NCBI RefSeq assembly: GCF_003697815.1
Contig: NZ_RDQG01000085.1
Coordinates: 186,001-250,000 of the forward strand
DNA: 64,000 nt
Source of the DNA: Halalkalicoccus subterraneus
Lineage (GTDB): Archaea; Halobacteriota; Halobacteria; Halobacteriales; Halalkalicoccaceae
Reading direction: 5' to 3'
Within the stretch, counting starts at the first letter, position 1. Each line of letters starts with the position of its first letter. The position numbers and the translations under genes were made by a program. The notes under the pieces were generated by a model. The model saw only the letters and a list, made by a program, of their open reading frames with translations, did not search any database and was not told the DNA's origin. Below are positions 7,479 to 62,416 of this stretch, piece after piece.

Positions 7479-7906
7479 GCCGTCCCCGAATCACCTCGCG
7501 ATCGAACCGGGAGACCGTCTATCGAACCCGGTCCAATTGACCGATACTTTCATTACAATTCATAGTGTGTGTTATCATGGATCAGCACATACGTGATCGT
7601 ACTAGGCGGGCTGGTCCGGGTCACGCGCGACTGGGCATCGGTTTCCCCCATACGGGGGTTGCGTGGCCCGTCGTGGTGGTTTTCCTCGGTCGAACAGTGC
7701 TCGGACGCTACTTCTCGGCCAGTGGTTCGCATCGTACCTCGACGACGGTCCGCTCGGGGAGTTCGTCGGTCGGTTCTCCGATGCCCCACACGCGCAAAAC
7801 GATGGTTCGTTCCGACCGGGCCGGAATCCGCCCCACACGTTCTGACCTGTCTCGTCCGTCGGAACCAAGTGCCAATCTTCATAACTGGCTGTCGTATTGG
7901 TCGATT
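7479..7906. other. Gene-free interval before the geranylgeranyl-reductase-like gene
   Basis: 428 bases. The downstream reading frame is open back to 7565, but residues encoded before 7907 show no protein character, so the frame is treated as fortuitous. No repeat or RNA gene recognised. Confidence 0.35.
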
Positions 7907-9139
7907 ATGGACGATTCAGTCGACGTACTTATCGCCGGTGCTGGTCCCGCCGGCGCACAGTGTGCACGCGACCTCGCTGCGCGGGATTACGACGTCACGG
8001 TCCTCGAAACCGAGCCGGAAGAGGGGTTTCCGCGCCAGAGCAACAAGTCCACCGGCGGGACGTTCCCGTCGATGCTCACGGCGTTCGGGATCCCCGACGA
8101 CGTCGTGATGAACTTCACCGACAACATCGTCATCGAATCGCCGAACGAACACTTCACGCAGGAACAGCCCGGTGGCGTGCTTGATTTCGGTGCGTTCAAG
8201 CGCTGGCTCGTCGAGGACGGCCGCGAGAAGGGTGCGCAGTTCCGATTCGATGCGCGCGTTTCGAACCCGATCACCGAGGGCGGCGAGGTCATTGGGGTGC
8301 AGTACGACGGTTCACGGGAGGCCTACGCCGACGTCGTGATCGACGCGACTGGACCGTCCGCCCCGCTGGCACGGGCACTCGGCGTCAGCGAGCTCAAACG
8401 AGGGAAACAAGCCATCGGGATCGAGTACGAGTTCGAAGGGGTCGACCTCGACGCACCGGGTTACGCCGACCTGACCGACGCGATGATGCTGCGACTCGAT
8501 CACTCCTACGCGCCCGGCGGCTACGCGTGGATCTTCCACACCGGCGCGGACACAGCAAAGGTCGGGCTCTGTTACATCCAAAACGAGAGCTATCGCCGGT
8601 ACGTCGACACGGACCGGACCGTCGACGGCTACCTCCAACACTGGCTCGACACCGACCCGCGCTTTGCCAACGCCGAGCAAATTGCCGGCCGCAACCACCG
8701 AGGCTCGGCCCATATTCAGCCGCCCGGATCGCTGTGTACGGATGGGTTCATGGCGATCGGCGACGCCGTCCCGTCGATCGATCCGCTCTGGGGAGAGGGG
8801 ATCCACAAGGGAATGCGCTCGGCGCGGGCCGCCGCCATCACCGCAGACAGAGCCCTCACTCCCGACGACCGTGACACCTCCGCGGAGAGCCTCTCGCTGT
8901 ACGAGCAGTTCTGGCACGAGTACGTCGCGCCGCGACAGAACGCCCGTCTCATGATGACCGAACTGCTGTATCTCGCGCCAAACGAGCGTTACGACGACCT
9001 GCTTCGCGACCTCAACCGTCTCGACTGGGAGACGCTGAGCAAAGCCAACGAAGGTAACAAGCTGGCGATGCTGCGCCTCCTCCAGCGTGAGGACCTGCCG
9101 TTGCTCGCCCGCTACGTCAAACACCGCCTCGCTGACTAA
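7907..9139 (+). CDS. Geranylgeranyl reductase-family FAD-dependent oxidoreductase
   Basis: Flavoprotein of 410 residues in the family that hydrogenates geranylgeranyl chains of archaeal lipids or other isoprenoids at the membrane surface. The start at ATG 7907 puts the Rossmann motif GAGPAGAQCA at residues 9-18 after the first strand, as in the family. A second FAD motif occurs in 'GFMAIGDAVPSIDPLWGEGI', with the typical GDA near the C-terminal third, and 'DVVIDATGPSAPLARALG' is the mid-domain FAD strand. Haloarchaea carry several paralogues, and this one may act on a non-lipid isoprenoid, carotenoid or quinone; its isolation gives no hint. Same strand, no close neighbours. Confidence 0.85.
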   Translation: MDDSVDVLIAGAGPAGAQCARDLAARDYDVTVLETEPEEGFPRQSNKSTGGTFPSMLTAFGIPDDVVMNFTDNIVIESPNEHFTQEQPGGVLDFGAFKRWLVEDGREKGAQFRFDARVSNPITEGGEVIGVQYDGSREAYADVVIDATGPSAPLARALGVSELKRGKQAIGIEYEFEGVDLDAPGYADLTDAMMLRLDHSYAPGGYAWIFHTGADTAKVGLCYIQNESYRRYVDTDRTVDGYLQHWLDTDPRFANAEQIAGRNHRGSAHIQPPGSLCTDGFMAIGDAVPSIDPLWGEGIHKGMRSARAAAITADRALTPDDRDTSAESLSLYEQFWHEYVAPRQNARLMMTELLYLAPNERYDDLLRDLNRLDWETLSKANEGNKLAMLRLLQREDLPLLARYVKHRLAD

Positions 9140-16995: not shown

Positions 16996-17206
16996 CGTTC
17001 GACGGCTAGTCCACTTCTCCCTATGTCAATTTTTTGATTGGCACTCCGTCGGACTTGCGTGACCACGGGGAACGCGGGACGGCGGCGATATGCTCTCGCA
17101 ATTGCCCTTTCAATAATATAATTTAATCTAGATATAGTTTAACGAATGTAGCTATCGGTGATATCGGGAAATGAGATATGAGGGATACCAGCGTACGGGT
17201 CGGTGT

Positions 17207-17485
17207 ATGGATGACTTGACGGGATTTCAGCGGGACCTCCTGTACGTGATCGCCGGCCTCGACGATCCACACGGGCTGGCGATCAAGAGCACTCTCGAGG
17301 AGTACTACGACGACGAGGTCCACCACGGGCGACTCTACCCCAATCTGGACACGCTCTGTGATAAGGGACTGGTCGAAAAGGGATCCCTGGACCGACGGAC
17401 CAACGTCTACGCCCTCACCGCCCGCGGCCGGCGAGAACTGGAGGCGCGACGGGAGTGGGAGATCCGGTACGTTCCAGCCGAATAG
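17207..17485 (+). CDS. PadR-family transcriptional regulator, copy A
   Basis: 92 residues (start MDDLTGFQRDLLY at 17207) comprising a single winged helix: 'HGLAIKSTLEEYY' is the recognition region and 'VHHGRLYPNLDTLCDKGLV' the typical PadR wing, with no C-terminal dimer domain. A close paralogue lies at 18053-18346, nearly identical in the DNA-contact region, so the two may share or compete for operators. AT-rich DNA at 17110-17160 probably holds the promoter. Target genes unknown; the terpene-synthase-like gene at 18476 is nearby. Confidence 0.85.
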   Translation: MDDLTGFQRDLLYVIAGLDDPHGLAIKSTLEEYYDDEVHHGRLYPNLDTLCDKGLVEKGSLDRRTNVYALTARGRRELEARREWEIRYVPAE

Positions 17486-17575: not shown

Positions 17576-17860
17576 TTAGTGGTCGTGTCCCGTCATCTCG
17601 GCGAAGGACACGCCGAACCGGTCCTCGAACAGTGCCATCGTTTCCTCCTCGATCGTCCGGAGGTCGTCGTCGGGTTCGCCCGGCGAGTGGTGCAACATCG
17701 CGTGGACCTGCTGGGCGGCCGAAAGCATCGCCAGGTCGCCGAGAGTTTCCGCGGACGTCTCATCGCCGTCTGCGAGCGTCTCGAGGAGTGCGGTCGGGAC
17801 GACCACCTCGTCGCTCGACCCGTCGTCGCCGTCGATCGCGAACGTAACTGAGGGAGCCAT
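17576..17860 (-). CDS. Small acidic haloarchaeal protein
   Basis: 94 residues from ATG 17860 (MAPSVTFAIDGDD). It begins with a short beta-rich part ('VTFAIDGDDGSSDEVVVP') and continues helical to a His-containing tail (TGHDH). Highly acidic, soluble, no signal. It lies between the two PadR genes, on the opposite strand. Family not recognised with confidence; function unknown. A longer in-frame start at 17974 would add an arginine-rich extension unlike the rest. Confidence 0.6.
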   Translation of the reverse strand: MAPSVTFAIDGDDGSSDEVVVPTALLETLADGDETSAETLGDLAMLSAAQQVHAMLHHSPGEPDDDLRTIEEETMALFEDRFGVSFAEMTGHDH

Positions 17861-18052
17861 ACCCCGTACTGGGCGGGCGAACGAATAGATCCGTTGGTTG
17901 CGATCGGTCTCGCTTCCCCTTGACCGCCAAGGCCATCGGCTGCGTAGCCGGAGAACCAACTCGGATATTTTCATCGAGTCGTCACTCGAGACCAGAATCG
18001 TCTACCGACCGAGAGACGAAAAGTTGACAACGACCTCGTCCAGTGATCTGGC

Positions 18053-18346
18053 ATGGACGACCTGACCGGGTTTCAGCGGGATCTCCTGTGGGCAATCGCT
18101 GGACTCGATGAACCACACGGGCTTGCGATAAAGGACGTCATCGAGGAGTACTACGGCTCGGAGGTCCACCACGGGCGTCTGTATCCGAACCTCGATACCC
18201 TCGTCGAGAAGGGACTGGTCGAGAAAGGGGAGATGGACAAGCGAACGAACGTCTACTCGGTCTCCAAGCGTGGGCGTCGGGAACTCGAATCGCGACGCGA
18301 GTGGGAACGACAGTTCATGGACACGGAAGCCGAGCCGACCAACTGA
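18053..18346 (+). CDS. PadR-family transcriptional regulator, copy B
   Basis: 97-residue winged-helix paralogue of 17207-17485; both begin MDDLTGFQRDLL and share 'VHHGRLYPNLDTL', 'KGLVEKG' and 'RGRREL'. Differences cluster at the helix before the wing and in the C-terminal tail, where effector or partner contacts would lie. The convergent gene at 18476 is the nearest downstream neighbour. Duplicated regulators in such proximity suggest recent tandem duplication. Confidence 0.85.
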   Translation: MDDLTGFQRDLLWAIAGLDEPHGLAIKDVIEEYYGSEVHHGRLYPNLDTLVEKGLVEKGEMDKRTNVYSVSKRGRRELESRREWERQFMDTEAEPTN

Positions 18347-18475: not shown

Positions 18476-19456
18476 TTATAGATAGCCGCGGCCCGCCTCG
18501 TAGTAGCGGTCGACCCGGCGCATCCCATCGATAAACGCGGGCAGGTCGACGGAGACGGCCGTACAGTCGGTACGTTGCAGCTCGTAGAGGGTGTTTCGCC
18601 ATTCGGTTTCGAAGTGCTCCTCGATGCCGGCGGTCCGTATTCGGCGGGCGATCCGGTTTCGCGTCTCAGTGGAGACGCCGTCCACCGGAAGGTCATCGAC
18701 CACACCGGTTTCGAGGGCCCTCGCGATCACTCCGGAGGTGTAATCACCCTCGACCAGCTCCCGTTCCCAGGTCGCGATCCAGTTTCCGATTCGGGCCAGA
18801 TACTGAACGTACCAGGTGATCGAACGGAGGGTGCTGAGATCGGCCCGGGAGAACCCGGGGGAGTACATGAGATCGAGGTCGACGTAGGAGTAGACGGCCA
18901 TATTGTGCGAGTCGTAGAGCTTACACTCCCGGGTATTGCCCATCGCCGGGTTGTCGTTGAGGAGGAGGCTGTAATCGATGGCGTTGAGCGTCTGTCCGAC
19001 GTCGAAGTCGAACAGCGCCCGATACTCCCCGTAAAACGGCGCGTCCCGTTGGCGCTGCTCGAACCCGTTCCAGACCGTCTCGGCGAACCGAAGCCGCTTT
19101 TCGTCGAGCCCGTGTCGGTCATAGGAGATCTCCTGATGGGGACGGGACAGCTTTCGGGCCTCGTCGAACGTCTCGCCGTCGCCGTGGATCTCCGCGAGGT
19201 CGTCGAGCAATGTGATGTAGATCGCGAGGAGGAGTTTCTGCTCGAGGAGCTGGTCCGCATACCGCGCTTCGACGGTCGAGAGTCTGAACAGCGGGATCAC
19301 TTCGTAGAGCCATTTCCAGAGGTACGGATCCCGATCCCCGATGGTGTCGTTGTACTCGTCTGCGAGACGGGCGAGGCCGGGCGGCAGGGTGACCGCCCTT
19401 ACGTCCCGTAGAATCGCGTCGGAATCCCCGTCCTCGATGGCTGGCTGACTTACCAT
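18476..19456 (-). CDS. Class I terpene synthase-like protein (candidate terpene cyclase)
   Basis: 326 residues from ATG 19456 (MVSQPAIEDG). The all-helical protein carries both metal-binding signatures of class I terpene cyclases: DDLAE at residues 85-89 (first Asp-rich motif, DDxxE form) and NWIATWERE at 225-233, which fits the N-x3-S/T-x3-E metal triad. The 140-residue spacing between them is that of the family, and an arginine-tyrosine pair near the C-terminus ('RRVDRYYEAG') matches the common RY element. These features predict Mg-dependent ionisation and cyclisation of a prenyl diphosphate (farnesyl or geranylgeranyl). Overall similarity to known cyclases is low, so the reaction is inference. 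It is single-gene, with a TATA element 25 bases upstream. Confidence 0.68.
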   Translation of the reverse strand: MVSQPAIEDGDSDAILRDVRAVTLPPGLARLADEYNDTIGDRDPYLWKWLYEVIPLFRLSTVEARYADQLLEQKLLLAIYITLLDDLAEIHGDGETFDEARKLSRPHQEISYDRHGLDEKRLRFAETVWNGFEQRQRDAPFYGEYRALFDFDVGQTLNAIDYSLLLNDNPAMGNTRECKLYDSHNMAVYSYVDLDLMYSPGFSRADLSTLRSITWYVQYLARIGNWIATWERELVEGDYTSGVIARALETGVVDDLPVDGVSTETRNRIARRIRTAGIEEHFETEWRNTLYELQRTDCTAVSVDLPAFIDGMRRVDRYYEAGRGYL

Positions 19457-20057: not shown

Positions 20058-21086
20058 TCAGTTCGGCGTACAGAACATCTGCGTGATGTAGACGTCCCGA
20101 CCGGTGACGGCAACGCCGATCCCCTCGGCCTCGTAGTCGCCGCGGATGTTCCGGCGGTGGCCCAACGAGTCGAGCCAGCCCTCGACGGTACTGTCGGCGA
20201 TCGAATCGGCGTCCTCGTCGCTGACGCTACCGGAGGACTCCCACGCGATGTTCTCGGCCCACGCGCGACAGTCGATGCCAGCAGCGTCGAGGCGATCGTC
20301 CGGTCCTTCCCCCTCGAGATTGTCGTGGTCGAAGTAGTCCCGGTCGGCCATGTCCTCCGAATGGGCGCGGGCGACGCTCGCGAGGTCGTCGTGATATGCA
20401 AGCCCGCCGAGCCCCTCGTCGGATCGGTAGGCGTTGATCTCGGCGTGGACGCGCTGCTCGACGCGCGCCTCGAACGACGACGGTTCGGGTTCGGGTCCCG
20501 GGTCCCCGCCCGAGTCGCCTCCCTCGCTATCGTCGTCGTCCGAATCGCCACTTCCGTCCGCACCCTGGTCCGACTCGTCGTCACCACCGTCGCCGTCAGC
20601 GTTATCGGACTCGTCCGGTTCAGGCTCCGGCTCGGGATCGTTCTCGCCCGGTTCCTCGCCCAAATCGTCGTCCTCCGGCTCGTCCTCATCGTCCTCGTTC
20701 CCTTCCTCATCATCCCACCAATCCCGATCCCCGTCCTCGGTCTCCCCGTCCCGATCGTCCCACCGGGTTCGATCGTCGCGGTGGTCCCGGTCGCGGTCGT
20801 AGCCCCATCCGTGCTCGCGGCCGCGTCCCTTGTGGCCGCGGCACCACTTCCCGCAGCCGCCGCGTCGGCGACGGCGGTTCCGGTCGCTCTTTCTCTTTCG
20901 TTTCCGGTCCCGATCGCGCTTCCGTCGGCGTTCGTATCTGCCGTGGGCGGCTGCCGGTGCGGAACAGCCCGTGAGGGCGAGCCCGGCCGCGCCGAGTGCT
21001 TGGAGGGTCGTTCGTCGGTTCTGCTGTGCGTCGCCGCTGTCGTTGTCGGTAGTGTCGGTTTCGTCGTCCATGGTTGGGATAGTCAT
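20058..21086 (-). CDS. CAP/SCP-domain secreted protein with basic and acidic linkers
   Basis: 342 residues. An RR-type signal with a lipobox-like LTGC near residue 40 suggests Tat export and lipid anchoring. Residues ~50-80 are dominated by Arg and Lys with a short Cys pair (CGKWC), then come ~110 residues of almost only Asp, Glu, Gly, Ser and Pro. The C-terminal ~130 residues form a CAP domain: 'HAEINAYRSDEGL', 'ARAHSEDMADRDYFDHDN', 'AENIAWESS', 'GWLDSLGHRRNI', with catalytic-type His and Glu. CAP proteins act outside the cell, with peptidase or binding roles. The abrupt charge reversal is unusual. An alternative start is at 21071. Confidence 0.85.
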   Translation of the reverse strand: MTIPTMDDETDTTDNDSGDAQQNRRTTLQALGAAGLALTGCSAPAAAHGRYERRRKRDRDRKRKRKSDRNRRRRRGGCGKWCRGHKGRGREHGWGYDRDRDHRDDRTRWDDRDGETEDGDRDWWDDEEGNEDDEDEPEDDDLGEEPGENDPEPEPEPDESDNADGDGGDDESDQGADGSGDSDDDDSEGGDSGGDPGPEPEPSSFEARVEQRVHAEINAYRSDEGLGGLAYHDDLASVARAHSEDMADRDYFDHDNLEGEGPDDRLDAAGIDCRAWAENIAWESSGSVSDEDADSIADSTVEGWLDSLGHRRNIRGDYEAEGIGVAVTGRDVYITQMFCTPN

Positions 21087-61405: not shown

Positions 61406-62416
61406 CTACGAGTAGCTCGTAACAAAATCATCTGTGATCGCGTTGCCAAGCTCATAGAGATGGTGTTCCTTGAGTGGCTCAGAGAGCTGATTGAGGGACC
61501 GCTGAGCGATCCATACGTACTCGGTGACACGATCTTGTGCGTAGGCAATGCTCCCAACGGATTTGAGTTCGGAAATGAGTGAGTCATAGGCTTCATCAGT
61601 CCCTTCGAGAAGTGCAGGAACATCGACCCCATACTGGTGTGCGTGAATCGTCATAATATTCACCGGCTCTAGGTTTCGACTCGAGATAGTGCCAGCTAGA
61701 TCTGGTTCTCTAGTGACTTTACGAATATTATGGTAGATATGGAATGCAACACCTATGTGACGGCCATATTCTGCCAATTGGTGAGCAATACACGTATCCT
61801 TTCCAGCGAGTATGGCGCCGATATAAGCTGATGAAGCGAACAGAGACCCTGTCTTTAGCCGCAGCATTTTGAGATATGTGGTTTCTGTAGCTGATTCATG
61901 GGAATTGAGTGAACAACTGAGCATCTGGCCTTCAAAAACATGCCTACACCCCCTCAGTAGGTTCCGTTGGCAGACGATAAGATCTTCAGCTGGTGCATCC
62001 GTCTCAAGGAGTATCTCGAGCGCTTTTGGAAATAGAGCATCTCCTGCTAGAATTGCAATTGATTGATCCTGTTTTGTATCAACCAGTGGCTTTCCTTGAC
62101 GTCGCTCGCTTTGCTTGATGACGTCATCATGCGCGACAGAGAGTATATAAGATAATTCTACCGCAAGCGCTGCAGGAATAATATCTTCCGTTTTGTCCTT
62201 CTCAATTTCAAAAGTATCGGCGACAAGTAAGAGGAGTGTCGCCCGAAGTCGGTATTCCTCAGGTTCAATTGAATACGGAATCGGTTCGGATAGGCTCGCT
62301 GGTAACTCATTCGCAAACAAAAAATCTAGTTCGGCAGATATTCGATCAGAATATTCAGTAACTACTGCTTCCAATGACGTGACGTCATTCATACTATTAT
62401 TTAAAGTTCCGTTCAT
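61406..62416 (-). CDS. Polyprenyl synthetase-like protein with lost Asp-rich motifs
   Basis: 336 residues aligned along the trans-prenyltransferase fold: 'ELSYILSVAHDDVIKQSERR' matches the first Asp-rich region, 'SIAILAGDALFPKALEIL' is a near-consensus helix, 'LKTGSLFASSAYIGAILAG' and 'YGRHIGVAFHIYHNIRK' correspond to later helices. However the first motif keeps only DD (97-98; third Asp is Lys101) and the second reads HIYHNIRK (226-233) with no Asp. Catalysis by the usual two-Mg mechanism seems unlikely; it may be a regulatory subunit or a diverged enzyme. Same strand as tetR upstream (90 bases). Start could be 62392. Confidence 0.75.
   Translation of the reverse strand: MNGTLNNSMNDVTSLEAVVTEYSDRISAELDFLFANELPASLSEPIPYSIEPEEYRLRATLLLLVADTFEIEKDKTEDIIPAALAVELSYILSVAHDDVIKQSERRQGKPLVDTKQDQSIAILAGDALFPKALEILLETDAPAEDLIVCQRNLLRGCRHVFEGQMLSCSLNSHESATETTYLKMLRLKTGSLFASSAYIGAILAGKDTCIAHQLAEYGRHIGVAFHIYHNIRKVTREPDLAGTISSRNLEPVNIMTIHAHQYGVDVPALLEGTDEAYDSLISELKSVGSIAYAQDRVTEYVWIAQRSLNQLSEPLKEHHLYELGNAITDDFVTSYS

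Follow-up and report, generated by a model that had tools for sequence, protein, structure and literature searches.

A divergent archaeal family of probable class I terpene synthases with a member in Halalkalicoccus subterraneus

A gene of the haloarchaeon Halalkalicoccus subterraneus, found in the 64,000-nucleotide stretch of DNA that was analysed here (the window), very likely codes for a protein from a divergent family of class I terpene synthases in archaea, as judged from sequence comparisons and structure models. The best reading of its sequence is a class I terpene synthase that would ionise a C15-C25 prenyl diphosphate. Homology to terpene synthases and conservation of their motifs were observed; the class I fold type is assigned from models with low to moderate confidence, and the substrate and product with low confidence. 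The minus-strand frame (19456..18476) starts with ATG, stops with TGA and encodes 326 aa, with a GC content of 62%, compared with 59% for the window, and a GC3 of 81%. A class I terpene synthase had been proposed, with no strand given, in the first-pass annotation of this DNA on the basis of two motifs, DDLAE (residues 85-89) and NWIATWERE (residues 225-233), spaced 140 residues apart. Both motifs were confirmed at this spacing in the translated frame (Table 1), and the proposed interpretation was supported by Pfam matches, profile-profile comparison, Foldseek and motif conservation, which concurred on homology.

Table 1. Coordinates in the window of the putative terpene synthase gene, its metal motifs and two candidate diphosphate-binding residues.
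Feature	Coordinates	Strand	Basis or position
Divergent class I terpene synthase-like gene, 326 aa	18476..19456	(-)	Translation, homologues, PF19086 matches of relatives, hhalign
Asp-rich metal motif, D85-D86-L-A-E89	19190..19204	(-)	C-terminal end of predicted helix 64-91
NSE-type metal motif, N225-W-I-A-T229-W-E-R232-E233	18758..18784	(-)	Near C-terminal end of predicted helix 204-235
Invariant Arg222, one helical turn before N225	18791..18793	(-)	Candidate stand-in for the diphosphate sensor Arg
Invariant Arg211, same predicted helix as Arg222	18824..18826	(-)	Second candidate diphosphate-binding Arg

The query protein alone had no match in Pfam, NCBIfam or PDB sequences, so that family membership rests on the relatives. 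NCBIfam contains no model for the family. An alignment of 79 family sequences was the basis of our conservation counts and profile searches. When the members were scanned singly, 63 of the 79 matched PF19086 (Terpene_syn_C_2; best 7e-8) and 14 matched PF03936, in a listing that admitted E-values up to 10, and therefore not all of these matches are significant alone. A genome-wide search with PF19086 recovered the same loci, spanning model positions 3-180 of 199. The curated cut-off of this model (23.7 bits) was passed in 29 of 195 genomes, including that of Actinarchaeum halophilum, which has separate canonical synthases; members of the query's family passed it in about 28 of the 195 genomes, with a best score of 35.5 bits, and the query itself gave no match.

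Because the signal of the family profile against a single canonical synthase was too weak, we aligned 12 annotated synthases, of which eleven are bacterial, and compared this alignment with the family using hhalign. The comparison scored 45.9 (E 1.8e-5), and its register placed DD over DD and N..T...E over N..S...E, the bacterial form of the latter being ND(L/I/V)xSxx(K/R)E. A 13-sequence set that included distant relatives gave an E-value of 1.5e-5. As controls, neighbour proteins scored 14.0, prenyl synthases 19.4 and squalene/phytoene synthases 16.7 (E 0.24). These control alignments were shallow, with six prenyl synthases and three squalene/phytoene synthases, so that the fair match for the six prenyl synthases is a six-sequence subset of the terpene synthases, against which the family scored 42.8. 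Squalene/phytoene synthase (PF00494) was rejected as a candidate, its profile similarity to the family being at background. Among PDB sequences, the family profile matched Sat1646 best (7e4n; E 0.045), with the alignment falling in the NSE region; a second Sat1646 entry, 7e4o, bears the title 'Class I Pimarane-Type Diterpene Synthases from Actinomycetes'.

Definitions of terpene synthase features were taken from PMC8450962. Of the features expected of class I enzymes, the DDxx(x)D/E motif around residue 90 and the N-x3-(S/T)-x3-E triad with its (K/R)E end near residue 230 are both present in the query. D86, N225, W226, R232 and E233 were invariant in all 79 members, as were R42, R211 and R222, and position 229 was Thr or Ser. 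Among 106 homologues, D85 was found in 102, and position 89 was Glu or Asp in every one. The family shares with PF19086 and the bacterial class I synthases DDxx(E/D) near residues 85-90 and N-x3-(S/T)-x2-(K/R)-E near 225-233, followed by a G-(E/D) acidic element.

In contrast to these shared features, the query is too low in identity to match PF19086, and the family departs from the bacterial enzymes at several positions. The usual Asp after the NSE Asn was replaced by Trp in 79 of 79 members. The pyrophosphate sensor Arg, which would precede the NSE motif by 46 residues, is Lys in the query and was Arg in 12 of the 79 members, as compared to 10 of 11 canonical sequences; this position has been called highly conserved, though not indispensable (PMC8450962). 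The Asn expected 8-9 residues past the NSE triad is missing, position 241 being Ser in 55, Ala in 20 and Asn in 4 of the 79 sequences, and no G-helix triad was found by alignment. Nor is the W/RY end conserved: the C-terminal RY pair to which the first-pass annotation pointed is present in the query (residues 317-318 of 326), but it is weak as evidence, being found in 29 of the 79 members, and the query has Gly at the Trp position, six residues before RY. SmTS1, a sesterterpene synthase of Streptomyces mobaraensis, likewise lacks the sensor Arg and the NSE-triad Asp, its Asn following the triad is also altered, and it is nevertheless active (PMC8450962), so that such absences leave activity possible. 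SmTS1 is a single unusual bacterial enzyme, whereas like departures are fixed throughout the query's family, and the two are likened by described features, not by sequence.

In the proposed mechanism, two Mg2+ ions would be held by DDxx(E/D) on helix D and a third by N-x3-T-x3-E on helix H. The trinuclear Mg2+ cluster would grip a linear prenyl diphosphate by its diphosphate group and then remove that group, and the allyl cation would be cyclised or quenched inside the helical cavity, giving a terpene in the form of a hydrocarbon or an alcohol. With the usual sensor Arg missing, we infer that R222, which precedes N225 by one turn, and/or R211 may bind the diphosphate instead. The substrate would be FPP, GGPP or the C25 compound GFPP; the host genome contains three prenyl synthase (PF00348) genes with both DDxxD motifs. 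Alternatively, the protein might be a diphosphate lyase or hydrolase of class I fold that yields linear products, either terpene alcohols or alkenes (from GGPP, for instance), and is no cyclase. The lack of the sensor Arg and of the G-helix triad in the alignment is consistent with such an activity, and the product class is not readable from sequence. However, synthases with linear products still belong to the terpene synthase family, so that this would change the product and not the membership, and it overlaps the terpene synthase reading as a sub-case. We regard a purely linear product as unlikely, although its probability is appreciable.

To compare folds, we used two AlphaFold2 models, one of the query and one of a Natrinema member, built from five sequences. 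The query model was helical throughout, in agreement with the earlier prediction of an all-helical protein, and had a pLDDT of 68 and a pTM of 0.67; the Natrinema model had a pLDDT of 74 and a pTM of 0.74. For each model, all 50 matches listed by Foldseek were class I isoprenoid synthases (probability 0.99-1.00), and these included prenyl synthases and the pentalenene, cucumene, 1-epi-cubenol and T-muurolol synthases. The modest pLDDT values of the models and their TM-scores of 0.34-0.52 to these matches reflect the use of only five sequences, and with E-values of 1e-3 to 4e-2 the matches support the fold type and not its detail. In the query model, the Asp-rich motif ends a long helix and the NSE motif lies near the end of another (Table 1), as in class I synthases. 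Structure prediction supported the class I fold type, but it did not separate the family from prenyl synthases, which scored equal to or above the terpene synthases in Foldseek.

This ranking of the prenyl synthases would be expected if the protein used a class I fold to ionise a prenyl diphosphate without making a terpene alone, either as a prenyltransferase with another acceptor or as a prenyl synthase-like enzyme, and the absence of the sensor Arg and helix-G features may signal a different reaction. We consider this improbable, since the second motif of the family is N-x3-T-x3-E and, unlike prenyl synthases, the family has no second DDxxD. In addition, the family resembles prenyl synthases in overall fold by Foldseek, whereas its profile score against them was at background, as compared to 42.8-45.9 against terpene synthases. 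A trans-prenyl synthase (PF00348) as such was rejected on the basis of the single Asp-rich motif and this hhalign score.

The view that terpene cyclases are rare in archaea, expressed in the first-pass annotation, proved wrong for the query's family. Of 394 Halobacteria genomes searched, 119 contained homologues (30-48% identity), representing 39 of 86 genera, whereas none was found in the 9 other genomes searched from the host's family-level group, six of which belong to the host's genus. Copies of the family on plasmids carry the annotation 'hypothetical protein'. When the 79-sequence alignment was used for searching, relatives were found in 19 genomes from other classes of the same phylum, some with E-values of about 1e-101 to 1e-84 and farther ones near 1e-24 to 1e-28, with the motif pairs DDIADK/NWLSTWERE, DDVSD/NWVGTWERE and DDSCD/NTINTWTRE. 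Some of these non-Halobacteria relatives are fragmentary copies with stops, indicating that the family is also decaying in some lineages. No relatives of the query were found in the viral contigs searched. From these sequence searches, terpene synthases of these archaea look common and unrecognised, not rare.

In the phylogenetic tree, the query grouped with two members of another family-level group (support 90/89). The family-level groups were intermixed, with groups f5 and f3 requiring 11 and 8 changes, respectively, a pattern in these sequences consistent with transfer, duplication and loss. The relatives found in the other classes fell outside the haloarchaeal sequences, at a split with weak support (82/69).

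No conserved biosynthetic partner was found across the family loci. Two neighbour proteins among them are cytochromes P450. The commonest upstream neighbours were PAS-GAF-BAT-HTH_10 regulators. Bat is known from Halobacterium as its bacterio-opsin activator. In 27 of 100 loci, which come from 10 genera and 3 families, a Bat-type regulator lies no more than 3 kb upstream, with divergent orientation in 21 of them, and in three further loci it lies downstream. Each genome contains 8-36 BAT genes, from which we estimated that one would lie within 3 kb by chance at approximately 1-2% of loci. The association persisted through orientation changes; it occurs chiefly within a single clade of the tree, and the loci are therefore not independent. 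The adjoining Bat-type PAS/GAF/HTH_10 regulator suggests light or oxygen control in that clade.

The same association might be expected if catalysis had been lost and the protein retained the terpene synthase fold as a sensor or binding protein. This is very improbable, because both metal motifs are nearly unchanged in very divergent members, as expected for an active metal-dependent enzyme. Although the query alone has no library match, a chance occurrence of the motifs in an unrelated helical protein was rejected as extremely improbable, since members match Pfam independently, the profile comparison fits bacterial terpene synthases, and 103 of the 106 homologues have the motif pair, as against 3 of the 606 other ORFs from the same neighbourhoods.

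The window gene has no Bat neighbour, and no biosynthetic cluster was found around it. The putative terpene synthase appears to be a stand-alone accessory enzyme. Directly upstream lies a gene for a CAP/SCP-domain protein whose long linker is acidic and of low complexity (20058-21086, minus strand), and a convergent PadR gene lies downstream. Two similar small PadR genes (17171-17485 and 18053-18346, plus strand) flank a DUF7545 gene (17576-17974, minus strand). Each of the seven genomes of the genus contains PadR-like sequences in multiple copies, which made a search of sister species for an empty site uninformative. Two further genes had been mentioned in the first-pass annotation as lying in the window but unlinked to the synthase gene, and these remarks held. 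The ORF at 7565-9139, proposed as a geranylgeranyl-reductase-like flavoprotein, matched FAD oxidoreductase and GGR_cat models. The gene described as an aberrant prenyl synthase (61406-62416, minus strand) encodes a polyprenyl-synthetase-like protein (PF00348 at 1.8e-31) that lacks both DDxxD motifs, and its product is possibly a non-catalytic subunit or a decayed copy.

Class I terpene synthase genes are also present in another haloarchaeon, Actinarchaeum halophilum, where they have no close relation to the query's family. Its plasmid NZ_CP071308.1 (55502-72935) carries two canonical terpene synthases, in frames of 473-481 aa that match PF19086 at 1e-49 and 6e-48; one is annotated as SRPBCC (N-terminal extension) and the other as hypothetical, and a polyprenyl synthetase gene adjoins each. 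These synthase genes lie amid transposases and recombinases, and the plasmid genes are likely acquired terpene cassettes. A relative was observed in Halocatena marina.

Terpene cluster predictions of the antiSMASH type are often founded on phytoene synthase. Terpene clusters predicted by antiSMASH have been reported in Halobacteria (PMC8600319), and PMC10105419 also refers to terpene clusters in archaea. The preprint of Samusevich et al. (2024-25; bioRxiv 10.1101/2024.01.29.577750; cited in PMC12797696) concerns, by its title, archaeal terpenoid biosynthesis via enzyme function prediction. In the literature searched, where this preprint was represented by its title, no description of the query's family was found. 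We conclude that the divergent family is real and very likely one of class I terpene synthases. Archaeal terpenoid biosynthesis as such has, going by the preprint's title, already been reported.

It is conceivable, though doubtful as a whole, that the family represents an archaeal-native class I branch that is old in the phylum. Such a branch would release diphosphate without the classical sensor Arg/effector, through R222/R211 and W226, would use C20/C25 precursors of archaeal lipids as substrates, would be under Bat-type light or oxygen control in many haloarchaea, and would carry out archaea-specific terpenoid chemistry. If the enzyme is active, a family whose lack of both sensor Arg and NSE Asp is fixed would offer a test of which elements of the class I trigger are indispensable, and the link to the Bat-type regulator is a testable clue to the physiological signal. 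In that case, about one third of haloarchaeal species, together with members of other classes of the phylum, would carry an unrecognised terpene synthase labelled 'hypothetical protein', and the question of whether and why archaea make terpenes beyond lipids and carotenoids would become answerable by routine expression and GC-MS.
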